Shown here one piece after another: positions 3,052 through 9,837 of a stretch of 9,837 nucleotides of DNA (positions within the stretch are counted from its first letter, which is position 1; each line of letters starts with the position of its first letter). Made by a program: the position numbers and the translations under genes. Origin of the DNA: a bacterium (lineage in GTDB: Bacteria > UBP15 > UBA6099 > DSWB01); contig JAGUYV010000423.1 of NCBI GenBank assembly GCA_020061125.1, positions 1 through 9,837 of the forward strand, given 5' to 3'. The notes beneath the pieces are model-generated. The model saw only the letters and a program-made list of their open reading frames with translations, did not search any database and was not told the DNA's origin.

Positions 3052-4860
3052 TTATTCCCAGAACTGGGGAATGTCGCCCGCGGCCAGAAGCAACCCGTTC
3101 CTGCTGTCTGGGAAAATGTCCTTGATGTGAGCCATGGGATTGGCGATGTCCAGAGAGCCGTTGCGAAATTTCAGGATGCGCGCCTCGTCGTTGGCCACGG
3201 TGTAGCCGATCACAAGCTCGTCCCTGCCGTCTTTGTCGAAATCCGCGGCCGCCAGGGTCAGCCCGGCTTCATAAGTGGGAACCGCCTGGGGATGGGAATC
3301 CAGCACGGTGAATCTGCCGTTCGCGTACTTATAAATCACAAGGTCGGAATTGCCGGCTTTCTTGGTCACAATGAGTTCGTCTCGCCCGTCTCCGTCGAGA
3401 TCTCCGCCGATGGCGTAGCAGCCGTCTCCGTAGGACCCGGGGAATACATCAATCAGCTCGGCCATGGGCTGCGACATATCGAGCATGCCGTCCGCGGATT
3501 TGTAAACGCGCACTTCGTCGTTGGACACGGTGGTGCAGAGCGCGAGTTCGTCCGTGCCGTCGCCGTCGAAATCTCCGGCTGCCGGGACCAGGCCGGAGGC
3601 ATAACCGGGAAGGGGCGACGCGATGCGCTGCCTCTCGGCCATGCGGCCCTTTTCATAGCCGAACACCGCCAGTTCGTTGCGATCATAAGTGGTGGAGCCG
3701 ACGAGTTCGTCAATGCCGTCGCCGTCGAAATCTCCGGTTTCCATGAAGATGCCGTTTTTATACCCGCTGAAAAAGTCCTCCAAATGGCTGAAAGGCACAT
3801 CGAACTGGAATTGCCCATTCTGGAATGGGAACACGCGCATGTCGTCGTTGGCCACGGAATGGGCCAGGGCAAGCATGGCTTCGCCCGGTTTCTGGAAATG
3901 CCCGATGCGAACGCGCACGCCCGCATTGTATGTGGGATACATGATGTCCCGGGCCTGCACGATTTCGAAAACCCCGTCGCGGCAGGCGAGGAACCGCAGC
4001 GCGTTCGTGTTCACCGAAGTGCTGACAACCAGGATAGCGCCGCCGGTTGTGCAGGGGTCGGCGCTTGGGTACTTGAAATCCTGGGTCGGAATCCTGTCCA
4101 CGCCCGGGCCGGGGGTGGGGAATATCGGGGTCGCGTCGCTGATGGTCACATCCTGCACGGCGTTGGCGAAATCAATCTGCGCCTGGCCGCTTAGCGTGCT
4201 TGCGAAATCGTCATAGATAATTAGAGCGGCGCGGCCCAGCGGGTTGCGAAGAAACCAGACCATGTCCTCGTCCATCTTGGGGTGGGATCGGCGCAGGGTG
4301 GACGCGGGCAGTTCCTGGGCCATGCGGCCGTCGTTGGCGAATTTCTGCATGTACACGATCCGGTTTAATTCCGAATCGTAAACGATGATGTTCATTTCGA
4401 GTTTGACGCTGTCGGTGTTGGATATATCCAGCGCGGTGACATCTCCAAACATGGCGTACCGGACATTGAGCATTTCCGCGAAAGCGTCCGCCGCGGCCCA
4501 GTCGAAGCGCTTGTTGACATCGTCAATGTTGTACGAGGTATATATTTTGCGCTGCATGTTCACGGCGAGGCGTTCGAACTGATCCGGCGGAACCACTTTG
4601 TATCCGAGGTCGTCGGGGAGCATGGTGGAAAACGACTGTTTAAGGCACCGGTTCAGGCCTTCGCGCTCTTTCTCGAAGAACCCGAGATCCCAGCCTCCGG
4701 GGATGACATCATCGAGTTGTCCGCGGTTGAAGCGCAGCGGCGTCCACACGCCGAAGAGCGCGACACTGTCCTGGCTGGCCTGTTTGGCTTGCGCGCATGC
4801 GTCATAGCACGCTGTGACAATCAGCGCCGTCACAAAAATTTTTATCAATATGTTCTTCAT
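3052..4860 (-). CDS. Exported FG-GAP/VCBS-repeat beta-propeller protein, function unknown
   Basis: I do not recognise a specific function. From the ATG at 4860 the protein is 602 aa. Residues 1-25 look like an export signal: Lys2, Lys7, then a hydrophobic run. VTAC (15-18) could be a lipobox, while AQA before Lys26 could be a signal peptidase I site, so it is either a lipoprotein or a periplasmic/secreted protein. Residues about 30-265 form an unassigned domain; its strand pattern near YAMFGDVTALD loosely recalls LpoB/CsgG- or TolB-N-like folds, which is weak inference. A Pro-rich linker (about 243-258) precedes the repeats (about 272-602). Four of these carry the calcium-loop motif DxDxDGxDEL, starting at 377, 430, 487 and 540. 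Such repeats build beta-propellers that bind ligands or partner proteins. A start 12 codons upstream (4896) is possible, but it would bury the signal and lacks a ribosome site; GGAAG lies 14 bases before the ATG at 4860. It is transcribed divergently from the sugar cassette. Confidence 0.88.
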   Translation of the reverse strand: MKNILIKIFVTALIVTACYDACAQAKQASQDSVALFGVWTPLRFNRGQLDDVIPGGWDLGFFEKEREGLNRCLKQSFSTMLPDDLGYKVVPPDQFERLAVNMQRKIYTSYNIDDVNKRFDWAAADAFAEMLNVRYAMFGDVTALDISNTDSVKLEMNIIVYDSELNRIVYMQKFANDGRMAQELPASTLRRSHPKMDEDMVWFLRNPLGRAALIIYDDFASTLSGQAQIDFANAVQDVTISDATPIFPTPGPGVDRIPTQDFKYPSADPCTTGGAILVVSTSVNTNALRFLACRDGVFEIVQARDIMYPTYNAGVRVRIGHFQKPGEAMLALAHSVANDDMRVFPFQNGQFQFDVPFSHLEDFFSGYKNGIFMETGDFDGDGIDELVGSTTYDRNELAVFGYEKGRMAERQRIASPLPGYASGLVPAAGDFDGDGTDELALCTTVSNDEVRVYKSADGMLDMSQPMAELIDVFPGSYGDGCYAIGGDLDGDGRDELIVTKKAGNSDLVIYKYANGRFTVLDSHPQAVPTYEAGLTLAAADFDKDGRDELVIGYTVANDEARILKFRNGSLDIANPMAHIKDIFPDSRNGLLLAAGDIPQFWE

Positions 4861-4896
4861 CTCAATCAGCCCCGCTTCCTTTTGTTGACTATTCAT

Positions 4897-5260: not shown

Positions 5261-6469
5261 ATGGGAAATCCCAGGGATGATCATGAAAGCGGAGCTGCAA
5301 AAGGGACAAGGCAGAAACGCATCCGGTACTGCACGCGATGCATCATGCCCGAGACCAAGCCGGATCTTTTCATTGATGAAGAAGGCGTGTGCAGCGCATG
5401 CCGGAACATGGAGAACAGGAAAGCCATTGACTGGGACCAGCGGCGCGGCGAGTTGAAACAAATTCTCGAGAAATACCGCTCCAAGGATGGAACCCGGTAT
5501 GATTGCATCATTCCCGTGAGCGGCGGCAAGGACAGCCATTACCAGACCATCCGGATGCTCGAGTTCGGCATGAACCCGCTCTGCGTGACCGCTACTACCT
5601 GCAGCCTGTCCGAGATTGGCCGCAGAAACATCGAGAATCTCAAGAGCCTGGGCGTGGATTACATCGAGGTGACCACGAACAGAAAAATCAGAAGAAAAAT
5701 CAACCGGCTCGGGCTGGAGCAACTGGGAGACATCTCGTGGCCGGAGCATGTGACCATATTCACCATACCCGTGAGAATGGCGATGCGGTTCCGTGCGCCC
5801 CTGATTATCTGGGGCGAAAATCCGCAGCACGAATACGGAGGGCCTGCGGCCGCGGCAGACGACAATGTGCTCACCCGGCGCTGGCTCGAGGAGTTCGGCG
5901 GCATGCTCGGCCTTCGCGTGAATGACCTGGTCGGCGTCAACGGCATTGAGCGCAAGCACCTCATTCAATATGTGTATCCCACGGACGAGGAATTGCGGGA
6001 AGTGGGCGTCACCGGCCTGTTCCTTGGCTATTATCTCCCCTGGGACGGATACAACAATGTGCTGATTTCACAGGCCCACGGGTTCGAGACCTACCCCGGG
6101 CCGGTGGAAGGCGCGCTGGTCAACTATGAGAACCTGGACAACATGCAGACCGGAATCCACGACTATTTTAAGTTCCTGAAGTACGGCTTCGGCCGGGCCA
6201 CGGATCACGCCTGCATGCACATCCGCCGAGGCCGTCTGTCAAGAGAGGACGCCGTCAGGCTGGTCAAGATCCACGATGGAAAGTTCCCCTGGGAATATCT
6301 GGGCCACAGGCTCGAGGACATGCTTGCGGAAATGGACATGTCCGTGGATGAATTCATCCGGATATGCGATAAATTCACCAACAAGAAACTCTTTCTTCAA
6401 GACTCGCGCGGCAATCTCGTCAAGGACCGGCACGGCAATCTCACGAAGGTGAACTACGACAACGAATGA
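5261..6469 (+). CDS. wbpG: N-acetyl sugar amidotransferase, WbpG/PseA family
   Basis: Members of this family use ATP and ammonia to turn an acetamido group of a nucleotide-activated or related sugar into an acetamidino group for O-antigen, capsule or flagellar glycans. The protein is 402 aa. Residues 22-50 hold two cysteine pairs (Cys24/Cys27 and Cys44/Cys47), a probable zinc site in the family's RYCTRC-type N-terminus. SGGKDS (87-92) is the PP-loop ATP-pyrophosphatase motif that adenylates the substrate. WGENPQHEYGG (184-194) and the GYYLPWDGY stretch (256-264) are well-formed conserved-looking blocks. The start is set by AAGGAG at 5247-5252, eight bases before the ATG. This leaves about 20 polar residues ahead of the usual family start. 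The stop overlaps the hisH start as ATGA (6466-6469), indicating translational coupling with the glutaminase that should supply its ammonia. The exact sugar substrate cannot be read from the sequence. Confidence 0.93.
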   Translation: MGNPRDDHESGAAKGTRQKRIRYCTRCIMPETKPDLFIDEEGVCSACRNMENRKAIDWDQRRGELKQILEKYRSKDGTRYDCIIPVSGGKDSHYQTIRMLEFGMNPLCVTATTCSLSEIGRRNIENLKSLGVDYIEVTTNRKIRRKINRLGLEQLGDISWPEHVTIFTIPVRMAMRFRAPLIIWGENPQHEYGGPAAAADDNVLTRRWLEEFGGMLGLRVNDLVGVNGIERKHLIQYVYPTDEELREVGVTGLFLGYYLPWDGYNNVLISQAHGFETYPGPVEGALVNYENLDNMQTGIHDYFKFLKYGFGRATDHACMHIRRGRLSREDAVRLVKIHDGKFPWEYLGHRLEDMLAEMDMSVDEFIRICDKFTNKKLFLQDSRGNLVKDRHGNLTKVNYDNE

Positions 6470-7080
6470 GAGTGGCGGTGATTGACTACGGGATGGGCAA
6501 CCTGGATTCGGTTGTCCGTGCCGTGGAGGAGTGCGGCGGCTCGCCGGTACTGACAAGGAGCGGGCGGGACATCGCCGAGGCCACGCACATCATTCTGCCC
6601 GGCGTCGGGGCGTTCGCCGAAGGAATGGAGCGCCTGCACAGCCTTTCGCTGGTGAAGGCGCTGGAGGAACAGGCGCTGGGGTACGGCATTCCGTTTCTCG
6701 GGATCTGCCTCGGGATGCAATTTCTGGCCTCGAGAGGAACCGAGGGCGGAGACATTCCGGGCCTGGGCTGGATTGAAGGTGAAGTGAAGAAGCTGGAACC
6801 CGTGAACGGCGAGCGCATCCCCCATGTGGGGTGGAACGATGTGGAGCATGACGCGCAGAGCGAGCTTTTCCGGGACATTCCCTCGGGCAAAGATTTCTAT
6901 TTCGTGCACTCGTACCATTTCCAGTGCGCGAATCCCGTTGATGCGCTGGCCGCCACGCCATATTGCGGGGGCTTCGTGTCCGCCGTGGGCCGCGGCAATG
7001 TTTTTGGGGTGCAGTTCCACCCGGAAAAAAGCCAGAGGGCCGGATTTCAGCTCATCAGAAATTTCCTTGCCATGAGGTAA
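6466..7080 (+). CDS. hisH: HisH-type glutamine amidotransferase subunit of the sugar cassette
   Basis: This is a class I glutaminase that releases ammonia from glutamine for a HisF-type partner. It is 204 aa, the normal HisH length. The catalytic triad is complete: Cys81 in GICLGMQ, and His185 and Glu187 in GVQFHPEKS. The N-terminal DYGMGNL (7-13) and the PGVGAF strand (45-50) are also typical. In histidine biosynthesis HisH works with HisF as imidazole glycerol phosphate synthase. Here it is coupled by an ATGA overlap to the amidotransferase upstream and sits one base from hisF, with no other histidine genes around. As in wbpG-hisH-hisF clusters, I infer that its ammonia goes to sugar amidation. 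A dual role in histidine synthesis is unlikely but cannot be excluded without the rest of the genome. Confidence 0.95.
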   Translation: MRVAVIDYGMGNLDSVVRAVEECGGSPVLTRSGRDIAEATHIILPGVGAFAEGMERLHSLSLVKALEEQALGYGIPFLGICLGMQFLASRGTEGGDIPGLGWIEGEVKKLEPVNGERIPHVGWNDVEHDAQSELFRDIPSGKDFYFVHSYHFQCANPVDALAATPYCGGFVSAVGRGNVFGVQFHPEKSQRAGFQLIRNFLAMR

Positions 7081-7081
7081 C

Positions 7082-7840
7082 ATGATCAAGACGCGGCTGA
7101 TACCGACCCTGCTGTACAAGGACCTCGGGCTTGTCAAGGGCGAGGCCTTTGACAGTTGGCGACGAATCGGCGGCGTGGTGCAGTCTATCCGCGTGTATAA
7201 TCTTCGGGAAGTGGACGAGCTTGTTTTCCTTGACATTTCCGCCACGGGCGAGGGCCGGCCGCCGGATTTCGAGGCCATAGACGAGTATGCGGACAACTGT
7301 TTCATGCCGCTCACCGTGGGCGGGGGCATCCGTACGGTCGAGGATGTGAGGAAGCTGCTGGCCGCGGGCGCGGACAAGGTGGCGATCAACACCGCCGCGG
7401 TCAAAACCCCGGAAATCATCCGGGACACGGCCAGGGTGTTCGGCGCACAGTGCGTCGTGGTGTCCATAGACGCGCGCGCACGGCCCGGAGGCGGCCACGA
7501 GGTTTTCATCAATTCCGGCGCTCTGGCCACAGGGCTTGATCCCGTGGAGCATGCCCGCATGGCCGAATCCATGGGCGCGGGGGAATTGCTGGTCACTTCC
7601 ATAGATCACGACGGGTTGCTGGCCGGATACGACATCAAGCTGATCAAGGCGGTAAGCGATGCGGTGTCCATTCCCGTGATTGCGTCGGGCGGCGCGGGCA
7701 AACCCCAGGATTTCGTGGACGCAATTCAGCAGGGGCATGCCACCGCGGTTGCGGCCGCGGCCATTTTCCACTTCACCGAAACCACGCCTTCGGAAGTCAA
7801 GGCTTACATGAAACAGGCGGGCATAAACATGCGGATCTGA
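7082..7840 (+). CDS. hisF: HisF-like ammonia-relay partner (WbuZ-type), catalytic Asp11 replaced by Leu
   Basis: This is a 252-aa TIM barrel of the HisF family. VGGGIR (79-84), DKVAINTAAV (98-107), SIDAR (128-132) and ASGGAG (201-206) are the usual phosphate-binding and strand motifs. Numbering matches Thermotoga maritima HisF at the N-terminus. The catalytic Asp11 (motif CLDVKD) is Leu11 here (TLLYKD), while Lys19 and Asp130 remain. The residues that form the ammonia gate in T. maritima HisF (Arg5, Glu46, Lys99, Glu167) are present as Arg5, Glu46, Lys99 and Glu168. The sequence therefore fits the glycosyl-amidation-associated WbuZ subgroup, which carries ammonia without making imidazole glycerol phosphate. 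The start follows the hisH stop by one base, with GAGG just upstream inside hisH. Database names will often still read 'imidazole glycerol phosphate synthase subunit HisF'. Confidence 0.93.
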   Translation: MIKTRLIPTLLYKDLGLVKGEAFDSWRRIGGVVQSIRVYNLREVDELVFLDISATGEGRPPDFEAIDEYADNCFMPLTVGGGIRTVEDVRKLLAAGADKVAINTAAVKTPEIIRDTARVFGAQCVVVSIDARARPGGGHEVFINSGALATGLDPVEHARMAESMGAGELLVTSIDHDGLLAGYDIKLIKAVSDAVSIPVIASGGAGKPQDFVDAIQQGHATAVAAAAIFHFTETTPSEVKAYMKQAGINMRI

Positions 7841-7886
7841 CCGGTCCGGCCAGTCGAAGCATATGCGGCACAACAAGGTTGATTGC

Positions 7887-9563
7887 ATGCCGAAATTCAA
7901 ACTTTACATTTCCGACCACAACCGGGTTCTCGCGGATTTGCGCAACCACCCGGATGTCGAGGAAGCGCCTCTGGTGAGCGCGGACGCCGTTGTGGTCTGG
8001 CAGGATTTCCGGGACCTGAATCGCGACATTGTGATGTTCAGCAACGCCATGGGCATTCCCACGCTGGTGATGCAGCACGGCTGCAACCAGGTTATCGAGT
8101 ATCTGCCGCCGTCCGAAGACGAACCCATGCAGTTCCCGGTCTTCGCCTCAAAAGTCATGGTCTGGGGGCCGTACGACAGGGAGAGACTGATTGAAACCGG
8201 TTATCCTCCGGAAAGAGTGATCCTTACCGGCCCGTCCATGTTCGACAATCTTCCGCCAAAGAAAGAACACCAGGGTATCAACATCGTCAATTTCCCGCTC
8301 AAATGGGATGAGGATGTCGAAGAGAACTACGAGGTTCTCCGAGCGCTGCTCGAAGCCGGGAAATATAATGTGACCACCAAGATCGTCCAGGAATTCCATA
8401 ATGTGAAACGCTTCGAGGCCATGCACAGCAAATACGGCGGCCGGGTGGTGGCTACCTCGTGCAATGCGCCGGACCATTTCGGCGCGCTGTACGATCTCGC
8501 CGCAACTGCGGACCTGTTCCTCGTCAACTGGTGCGGCGTCACCCCGGCCCTCATAGCGGATTGCATGGACATCCCCATCGTATACGCGGATGTGTTCAAG
8601 CCCCGGCGGCTGCTGGGTTCGGACAAGTTATATCACTTTGTGGATCCGGGCAACGGGGATGTGGTGAGCGATCTGTCCCGGCTTACGGAAGTTATTGACT
8701 ACAACCTCGATCACCCCGGACACAACCGGGACAAGCGCCGGGCGTCGGCCCGCAAACTGGCGAATTTCGGGGCAGAGGGCAAAGCCCTGGACCGGATTCT
8801 GGAAACCGTGAAGGCTGCGGTCACGGAAGCACGCCCGGATTCCGTGGCCAAAACCGTGTTTTCCCAGCTCGGTCCAAATGAAGCAGCGCTTCTCTCCGAG
8901 AGCATCGCGGACTTCCTGGACGACAAGGGAGAGCACAGGGCGTACAGGCCTTACGCCGCCGCTCTACGGTCACAGGAGCCTTATCTCGTCGTCGAGTCCG
9001 TTCCGGGTTTCCCCGGCGAGGTTCTTGTGGCGGAAATCCCGGTGGGAACGGATTACGGGCAGCTTCCGTTTGCCGCGGAAAACGCGGTGACAACTCTCAT
9101 CGGGAAACACGCGCGTGTTGTGCGGCTGGACCAAATCGCCTCGCAGGTTGCGCCTGGCGCTGTGGACCTTGTTTTCGACTCGAATTATCCGCGCTCCGCC
9201 ACGGAGCTGGAAACCCGGCTTGCGGCATATTCCGGTCTGCTCAAACCCGGCGGCAGTCTCCACATGATGTTTCCCAACCCCGGGGCTTACAAAACCAGGG
9301 TCAAAATCAGGCTGGGGCGTCCCGCGCCCTGGTCTTTATCAAAACCGTTTCCTTCCCCCGCCAGCGTGATGCGAACCATTGAGCGGAGCGGATTCCGGGA
9401 AGTGTCTCGGGAATGGATTCGTCTCTCGAAATTTCATGTCCCCAGCGCGGCTTCACGGGAAGAGTTCAAGCTGCGGCTCGCCGGTTCTTTTTACCGCATT
9501 TTCAAGGGCCTTCTGCCCGAAACAATGGGAAGCGCCCTGGCCCTTCATTACACAAAATCCTGA
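7887..9563 (+). CDS. GT-B glycosyltransferase-like protein fused to a methyltransferase-like domain
   Basis: The protein is 558 aa from the preferred ATG at 7887, which has AAGG eight bases upstream. An ATG at 7863 would add eight residues but lacks a ribosome site. Residues about 1-310 resemble GT-B enzymes of the CDP-glycerol glycerophosphotransferase / UDP-GlcNAc 2-epimerase style: GIPTLVMQHG (56-65), YPPERVILTGPSMFD (106-120) and a donor-site-like segment starting ADLFLVNWCGVTP (208-220). Residues about 360-515 look like a class I SAM methyltransferase: VDLVFDSNYP (426-435), LLKPGGSLHMMFP (451-463) and SGFREVSREW (501-510). The glycine-rich SAM motif I is not visible. There is no signal peptide or membrane segment, so it is probably cytoplasmic. 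It follows hisF by 46 bases and likely transfers or modifies the amidinated sugar in the same operon. Fold assignment is by motif only and the specific activity is unknown. Confidence 0.78.
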   Translation: MPKFKLYISDHNRVLADLRNHPDVEEAPLVSADAVVVWQDFRDLNRDIVMFSNAMGIPTLVMQHGCNQVIEYLPPSEDEPMQFPVFASKVMVWGPYDRERLIETGYPPERVILTGPSMFDNLPPKKEHQGINIVNFPLKWDEDVEENYEVLRALLEAGKYNVTTKIVQEFHNVKRFEAMHSKYGGRVVATSCNAPDHFGALYDLAATADLFLVNWCGVTPALIADCMDIPIVYADVFKPRRLLGSDKLYHFVDPGNGDVVSDLSRLTEVIDYNLDHPGHNRDKRRASARKLANFGAEGKALDRILETVKAAVTEARPDSVAKTVFSQLGPNEAALLSESIADFLDDKGEHRAYRPYAAALRSQEPYLVVESVPGFPGEVLVAEIPVGTDYGQLPFAAENAVTTLIGKHARVVRLDQIASQVAPGAVDLVFDSNYPRSATELETRLAAYSGLLKPGGSLHMMFPNPGAYKTRVKIRLGRPAPWSLSKPFPSPASVMRTIERSGFREVSREWIRLSKFHVPSAASREEFKLRLAGSFYRIFKGLLPETMGSALALHYTKS

Positions 9564-9788: not shown

Positions 9789-9837
9789 ATGCATCCCAAG
9801 GCATGTTGTTCCATCAAACCGCTGCTGGCGGCGTTTG
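9789..9837 (+). CDS. Start of an unidentified gene, truncated by the window edge
   Basis: An ATG at 9789 follows AAAAGGA (ending 11 bases upstream) and opens a frame that stays open for 16 codons to the edge. The residues MHPKACCSIKPLLAAF have an early lysine followed by a hydrophobic stretch, which could be the beginning of a signal peptide or membrane anchor. The fragment is too short to assign a family. It is supported by the ribosome site and by the upstream promoter candidate. Confidence 0.4.
   Translation, partial: MHPKACCSIKPLLAAF

Follow-up and report, generated by a model that had tools for sequence, protein, structure and literature searches.

This locus raises the question of what is done by a two-domain protein, half glycosyltransferase-like and half methyltransferase-like, whose gene stands directly behind a sugar amidation module. 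The window, that is, the whole stretch of DNA analysed, is an entire contig of 9,837 bases (G000:C26) from a genome of 513 contigs estimated to be 79% complete. Four genes run head to tail on its forward strand: wbuX, hisH, hisF and the gene for the two-domain protein, here called P0001. wbuX and hisH overlap by 4 bp, a gap of 1 bp separates hisH from hisF, and 22 to 46 bp lie between hisF and P0001. The preliminary description was right both on this position after the amidation module and on the reading frame: P0001 (7887..9563, +) is an open frame of 558 aa, with the best coding signal in its own frame over its length. AAGG is found directly 5' of the ATG at 7887, and an in-frame ATG at 7863 offers an alternative start, giving 566 aa. 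On the 3' side, about 225 bases lead to a possible next gene start near 9789, the contig ending 274 bases past P0001. On the reverse strand (3052-4896), the window contains a gene divergent from wbuX for a 614-aa protein with FG-GAP repeats, possibly a surface protein.

The sequences of the three upstream genes make a convincing case for an intact acetamidino module. The first (5261..6469, +) encodes a 402-aa N-acetyl sugar amidotransferase of the wbuX/wbpG type (NCBIfam TIGR03573, 345 bits, cut-off 203), whose translation carries an SGGKDS PP-loop and four cysteines in CTRC...CSAC. It is followed by a hisH-type glutaminase of 204 aa (6466..7080, +; TIGR01855, 225 bits, cut-off 105), with the Cys nucleophile within GICLGMQ, and by a hisF/wbuZ-type barrel of 252 aa (7082..7840, +). 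The barrel reaches 292.5 bits with the WbuZ model TIGR03572, slightly below the cut-off of 299.7, and scores lower (276) with the hisF model. Contig C3 carries a second HisF-type gene (IPCLDVRDGRLVKG) of this genome, so the copy within the window is not necessarily one for making histidine. In the family scheme, HisH frees ammonia and HisF conveys it, while WbuX uses ATP to activate the acetamido group. The PP-loop and tetracysteine motif of WbuX are also those of LpNASAT, the Legionella enzyme, and the ATP-to-AMP step of WbuX-type activation is a proposal by the authors of that work (PMC10607449).

A plausible, though unproved, target sugar for the module is a nonulosonic acid, given the adjoining NeuB-like and PseG-like genes on contig C292 (L220, 2018-4171). 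Both fall below the NCBIfam equivalog cut-offs; the pair could represent a divergent nonulosonic acid pathway and is a possible source of substrate for amidation. In another genome of the same order (G001), the module is arranged as hisH-hisF-wbuX (L050, G001:C84, 7352-10008), which differs from the window, and is part of a large cluster for surface polysaccharide that also has flippase-, polymerase- and glycosyltransferase-like genes. Three genomes contain paired strong wbuX homologues 0.3 to 1.7 kb apart (G137:C24, 40042-42371; G049:C69, 67764-71363; G143:C1, 52059-55836), which suggests amidotransferases of different specificity.

Within P0001, residues 29-310 (7971..8816, +) correspond to a truncated GT-B domain. 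Against a profile of 12 GT-B relatives, this region scored 110.5 with hhalign, while the maximum of 100 shuffles was 26.9. Several of these relatives match Glyphos_transf, Epimerase_2 and the NCBIfam models TIGR04326, TIGR04396 and NF046086. P0001 keeps QHG (63-65), GYPPERVILTG (105-115, with TG at 114-115), His171 and Asp209. In the S-T-x3-E donor motif, the Ser and the Glu found in 12/12 relatives are replaced by Val218 and Ile223, respectively, and the HP of 11 of the 12 is HN (H171-N172). Identity between P0001 and its relatives is 10-27%, at which such residue-to-residue matches may be wrong. Upstream of QHG, P0001 has only 62 residues, where seven relatives have 158 to 385; about 100 residues of the N-lobe are absent from P0001, and the open frame cannot supply the missing part. 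No curated cut-off was reached by this half in Pfam, where PF02350 gave 12.2 bits against the required 30.6, or among the relevant NCBIfam models, and neither phmmer against the PDB nor a profile of the N-terminal half returned a match. A match of P0001 to the beta-propeller model TIGR04275 covers only 17 residues and was judged to be due to chance. The GT-B style motifs reported earlier for the first 310 residues are thus present and reflect homology, but it had been overlooked that this half is truncated as well and has lost the donor Ser and Glu. With this degeneration of the N-terminal half, both domains become suspect instead of the tail alone.

The methyltransferase-like core extends over residues ~365-506 (8979..9404, +), from beta1 to SGFREV. 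Residues 321-558 reached hhalign scores of 48.5 and 53.3 with methyltransferase profiles, which none of 200 shuffles attained (maximum 28.1). In a control with 200 other ORFs, only two outscored the tail of P0001, both of them methyltransferase genes by sequence, and the best non-methyltransferase ORF scored ~28. In agreement, phmmer matches the tail to the methyltransferase L006 from the same genome, and a pairwise alignment shows similarity to L090 that extends over the final part of the domain. The late methyltransferase signatures noticed in the preliminary description could be located at residues 426-433 (VDLVFDSN), 451-466 (LLKPGGSLHMMFPNPG) and 501-506 (SGFREV). This half did not reach any Pfam or NCBIfam cut-off either. 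Judged by profile comparison, the two halves are homologous to GT-B glycosyltransferases and class I methyltransferases, far above chance in the shuffle controls.

The glycine-rich SAM loop of the tail was described earlier as lacking GxGxG around residues 379-399. The loss is real, as GxGxG is not found anywhere in residues 340-410, but the site was probably misplaced. MAFFT and hhalign agree on a register in which the equivalent of motif I is most likely the degenerate stretch YLVVESVPG, residues 366-374 (8982..9008, +). The acid and the first and second Gly correspond there to V368, E370 and V372, and G374, the last Gly, is the only one kept; the spacings D389-D415 and D415-D427 look normal. 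VGTDYG (386-391; 9042..9059, +) is aligned by phmmer, Pfam Methyltransf_12 and MAFFT with beta2, D389 being the acidic residue. One weak pairwise alignment backs the 379-399 register, with EIPVGTDYG as motif I, resembling EIGCGTGYG. Motif I is degenerate in both: P0001 has at most two of the four features of h-h-D/E-h-G-x-G-x-G in any register, compared with three or four in 30/31 methyltransferases. The helix A region is also about four residues short.

Structure prediction gave limited information. A single-sequence AlphaFold2 model of the whole P0001 had a pLDDT of 36 and was left unused. Residues 312-558, modelled with an alignment of 31 viral methyltransferases, gave a mean pLDDT of 62.6 and a pTM of 0.62, with beta1 at 366-369 and the least confident region at 382-398 (pLDDT <50). 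Foldseek searches with this model returned methyltransferases (best E 6.5e-4), and VIA-align found 3cc8 (Z 8.8, rmsd 6.2 over 161) and 4htf (Z 8.8, rmsd 4.8 over 171), both with middling Z-scores. These results are partly circular because the methyltransferase rows of the alignment supply the fold, and a PDB search with that alignment inevitably returned only methyltransferases. The model is therefore consistent with a methyltransferase fold rather than proof of one, and a SAM pocket is neither shown nor ruled out by it.

Codon usage differs between the two halves, with 0.19 for the N-terminal half and 0.03 for the tail (8817-9560) against a native mean of 0.25 (53 segments). The drop fits either a different origin of the tail or relaxed constraint. 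Coding contrast reaches its minimum over the final 80 codons. On contig G000:C3, a gene for a TPR-like protein (L221, 5258-6376) has a strongly non-native codon usage (-0.42) and was probably acquired horizontally or is contamination; the tail of P0001 lies above this foreign-looking gene. A frameshift behind the missing motif I was considered and rejected, as the P0001 frame scores best there and the other frames have no motif I.

Full-length homologues of P0001 were not found in 98 related genomes, in seven species genomes of the phylum, in two pattern scans of 85,000 species genomes, which reach only fairly close relatives, in two scans of viral contigs, or in phages or plasmids. Two matches in the genome collection, from Omnitrophota and Staskawiczbacteria, are stand-alone GT-B proteins without the methyltransferase tail. 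Plasmids gave only two 30% fragments, located in CDP-glycerol glycerophosphotransferases, and phages gave none. Nothing relevant was found in PHROGs or Rfam. Distant GT-B genes occur near some wbuX-type modules, and the 19 other wbuX-type neighbourhoods examined, with sizes of 12 to 20 kb, had no P0001-like gene, a twentieth region containing only the GT-B relative from G094, already found. As there is neither a full-length homologue nor a P0001-like gene in those neighbourhoods, none of the three (fusion, missing motif I, linkage to wbpG-hisH-hisF) could be shown to be conserved. Orthologues may exist in open metagenomes. We found no description of a GT-B/methyltransferase fusion beside an acetamidino module in the open-access literature.

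We suggest that P0001 is a lineage-restricted fusion, degenerate in its donor site as well as in its SAM loop, that assists the amidation module as an accessory, either without catalysis or radically re-purposed, a reading to which we assign a probability of about 0.42. Ammonia freed by HisH would pass through HisF to WbuX, which would amidinate the N-acetyl group of a sugar, while P0001 would recognise or hold the acceptor glycan or sugar nucleotide, or its carrier, or scaffold the enzymes, without catalysing a transfer. The homology of the two halves, the residue losses, the operon-like order and the lack of homologues in the sets searched are results of computation, whereas loss of catalysis, a binding role and a partnership with WbuX are what we infer as most likely. 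The narrower version, in which a double pseudoenzyme (dead GT-B plus dead methyltransferase) serves an acetamidino amidotransferase complex as the subunit that recognises its substrate or scaffolds it, seems rather unlikely, and we know of no such role described for acetamidino systems. Counted against the accessory reading is the conservation of His171, QHG and Asp209, which an entirely dead GT-B domain would not need. The same residues, together with GYPPERVxLTG, favour the strongest rival, a glycosyltransferase that still works despite its altered donor site, transfers the amidinated sugar and uses the dead tail as an acceptor- or partner-binding module. The near-native codon usage of the N-terminal half, the surface carbohydrate glycosyltransferase models matched by the relatives and the place of the gene after sugar-modifying genes point in the same direction. 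This rival is nevertheless doubtful, since Ser218Val and Glu223Ile fall on positions invariant in the 12 relatives, HP has become HN and the N-lobe is some 100 residues short.

The degeneration of both active sites, the absence of orthologues from the genomes of the order that were searched, the weak codon adaptation of the tail and the fading of coding contrast at the very end could also mean that P0001 is a fused relic in decay, its frame still open and neither half under selection for function. This is unlikely considering 558 codons without a stop, the AAGG near the start and the normal codon usage of the N-terminal half, and domains of different origin would shift codon usage too. It appears improbable that the tail is an active methyltransferase whose cofactor loop (VVESVPGFPG or EIPVGTDYG) has diverged, and P0001 thereby a transferase of one or two activities. 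SAM binding is in itself compatible with a degenerate motif I, D389 is retained along with the beta3/beta4 motifs, and EIPVGTDYG recalls EIGCGTGYG in the 379-399 register, but the poor match to motif I in any register, the shortened helix A region and the low confidence of the model at 382-398 speak against it. Between the two options put forward earlier for the tail, a dead fold used for binding or a divergent cofactor loop, the dead fold is the likelier, but it probably concerns both halves instead of the tail alone. An assembly or sequencing error that masks an ordinary motif I or has merged two genes is very improbable: the assembly is incomplete and the contig ends shortly after P0001, but no other frame of the motif I region contains GxGxG, the frame of P0001 scores best there, and in the GT-B half the losses are single-position changes within a frame that codes well.

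What the sequence shows is sound, and the domains were assigned with good controls, while what we infer about function comes from one genome. The proposal of a dedicated enzyme for amidino-sugar glycans was not established, its sole link being the operon position in one incomplete genome. Should P0001 be a non-catalytic partner, it would illustrate how an amidotransferase module is directed to its glycan, and would add to the instances of two enzyme folds being recruited jointly for binding. Should it be just a transferase that has diverged or is decaying, it would be a minor curiosity; for now, it is known from a single genome.

Compared with known systems, the three upstream genes belong with the WbpG/WbuX-HisH-HisF modules of LPS and nonulosonic acids, and the modules examined elsewhere have no P0001-like fourth gene. 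With the GT-B surface carbohydrate glycosyltransferases (NF046086 BFO_1060, TIGR04326, TIGR04396; PF04464, PF02350), residues 29-310 share QHG, G-x-P-x-R-V-x-x-T-G and the ADLF strand. Unlike them, P0001 meets no family cut-off, has lost most of the N-lobe and carries Val/Ile for Ser/Glu and HN for HP. Residues ~365-506 have beta4, LxPGG and the later helices in common with the class I SAM-dependent methyltransferases (PF08241/PF13649/PF08242; L090 and L006 being the nearest local ones), but differ in having YLVVESVPG for motif I, a shortened helix A region and no family cut-off met. Anamorsin (2ld4), a non-catalytic methyltransferase-fold protein of no demonstrated sequence relationship to P0001, was matched only weakly by Foldseek, with a model built from methyltransferase sequences; what the two would share is a fold like that of methyltransferases but lacking the canonical SAM loop.
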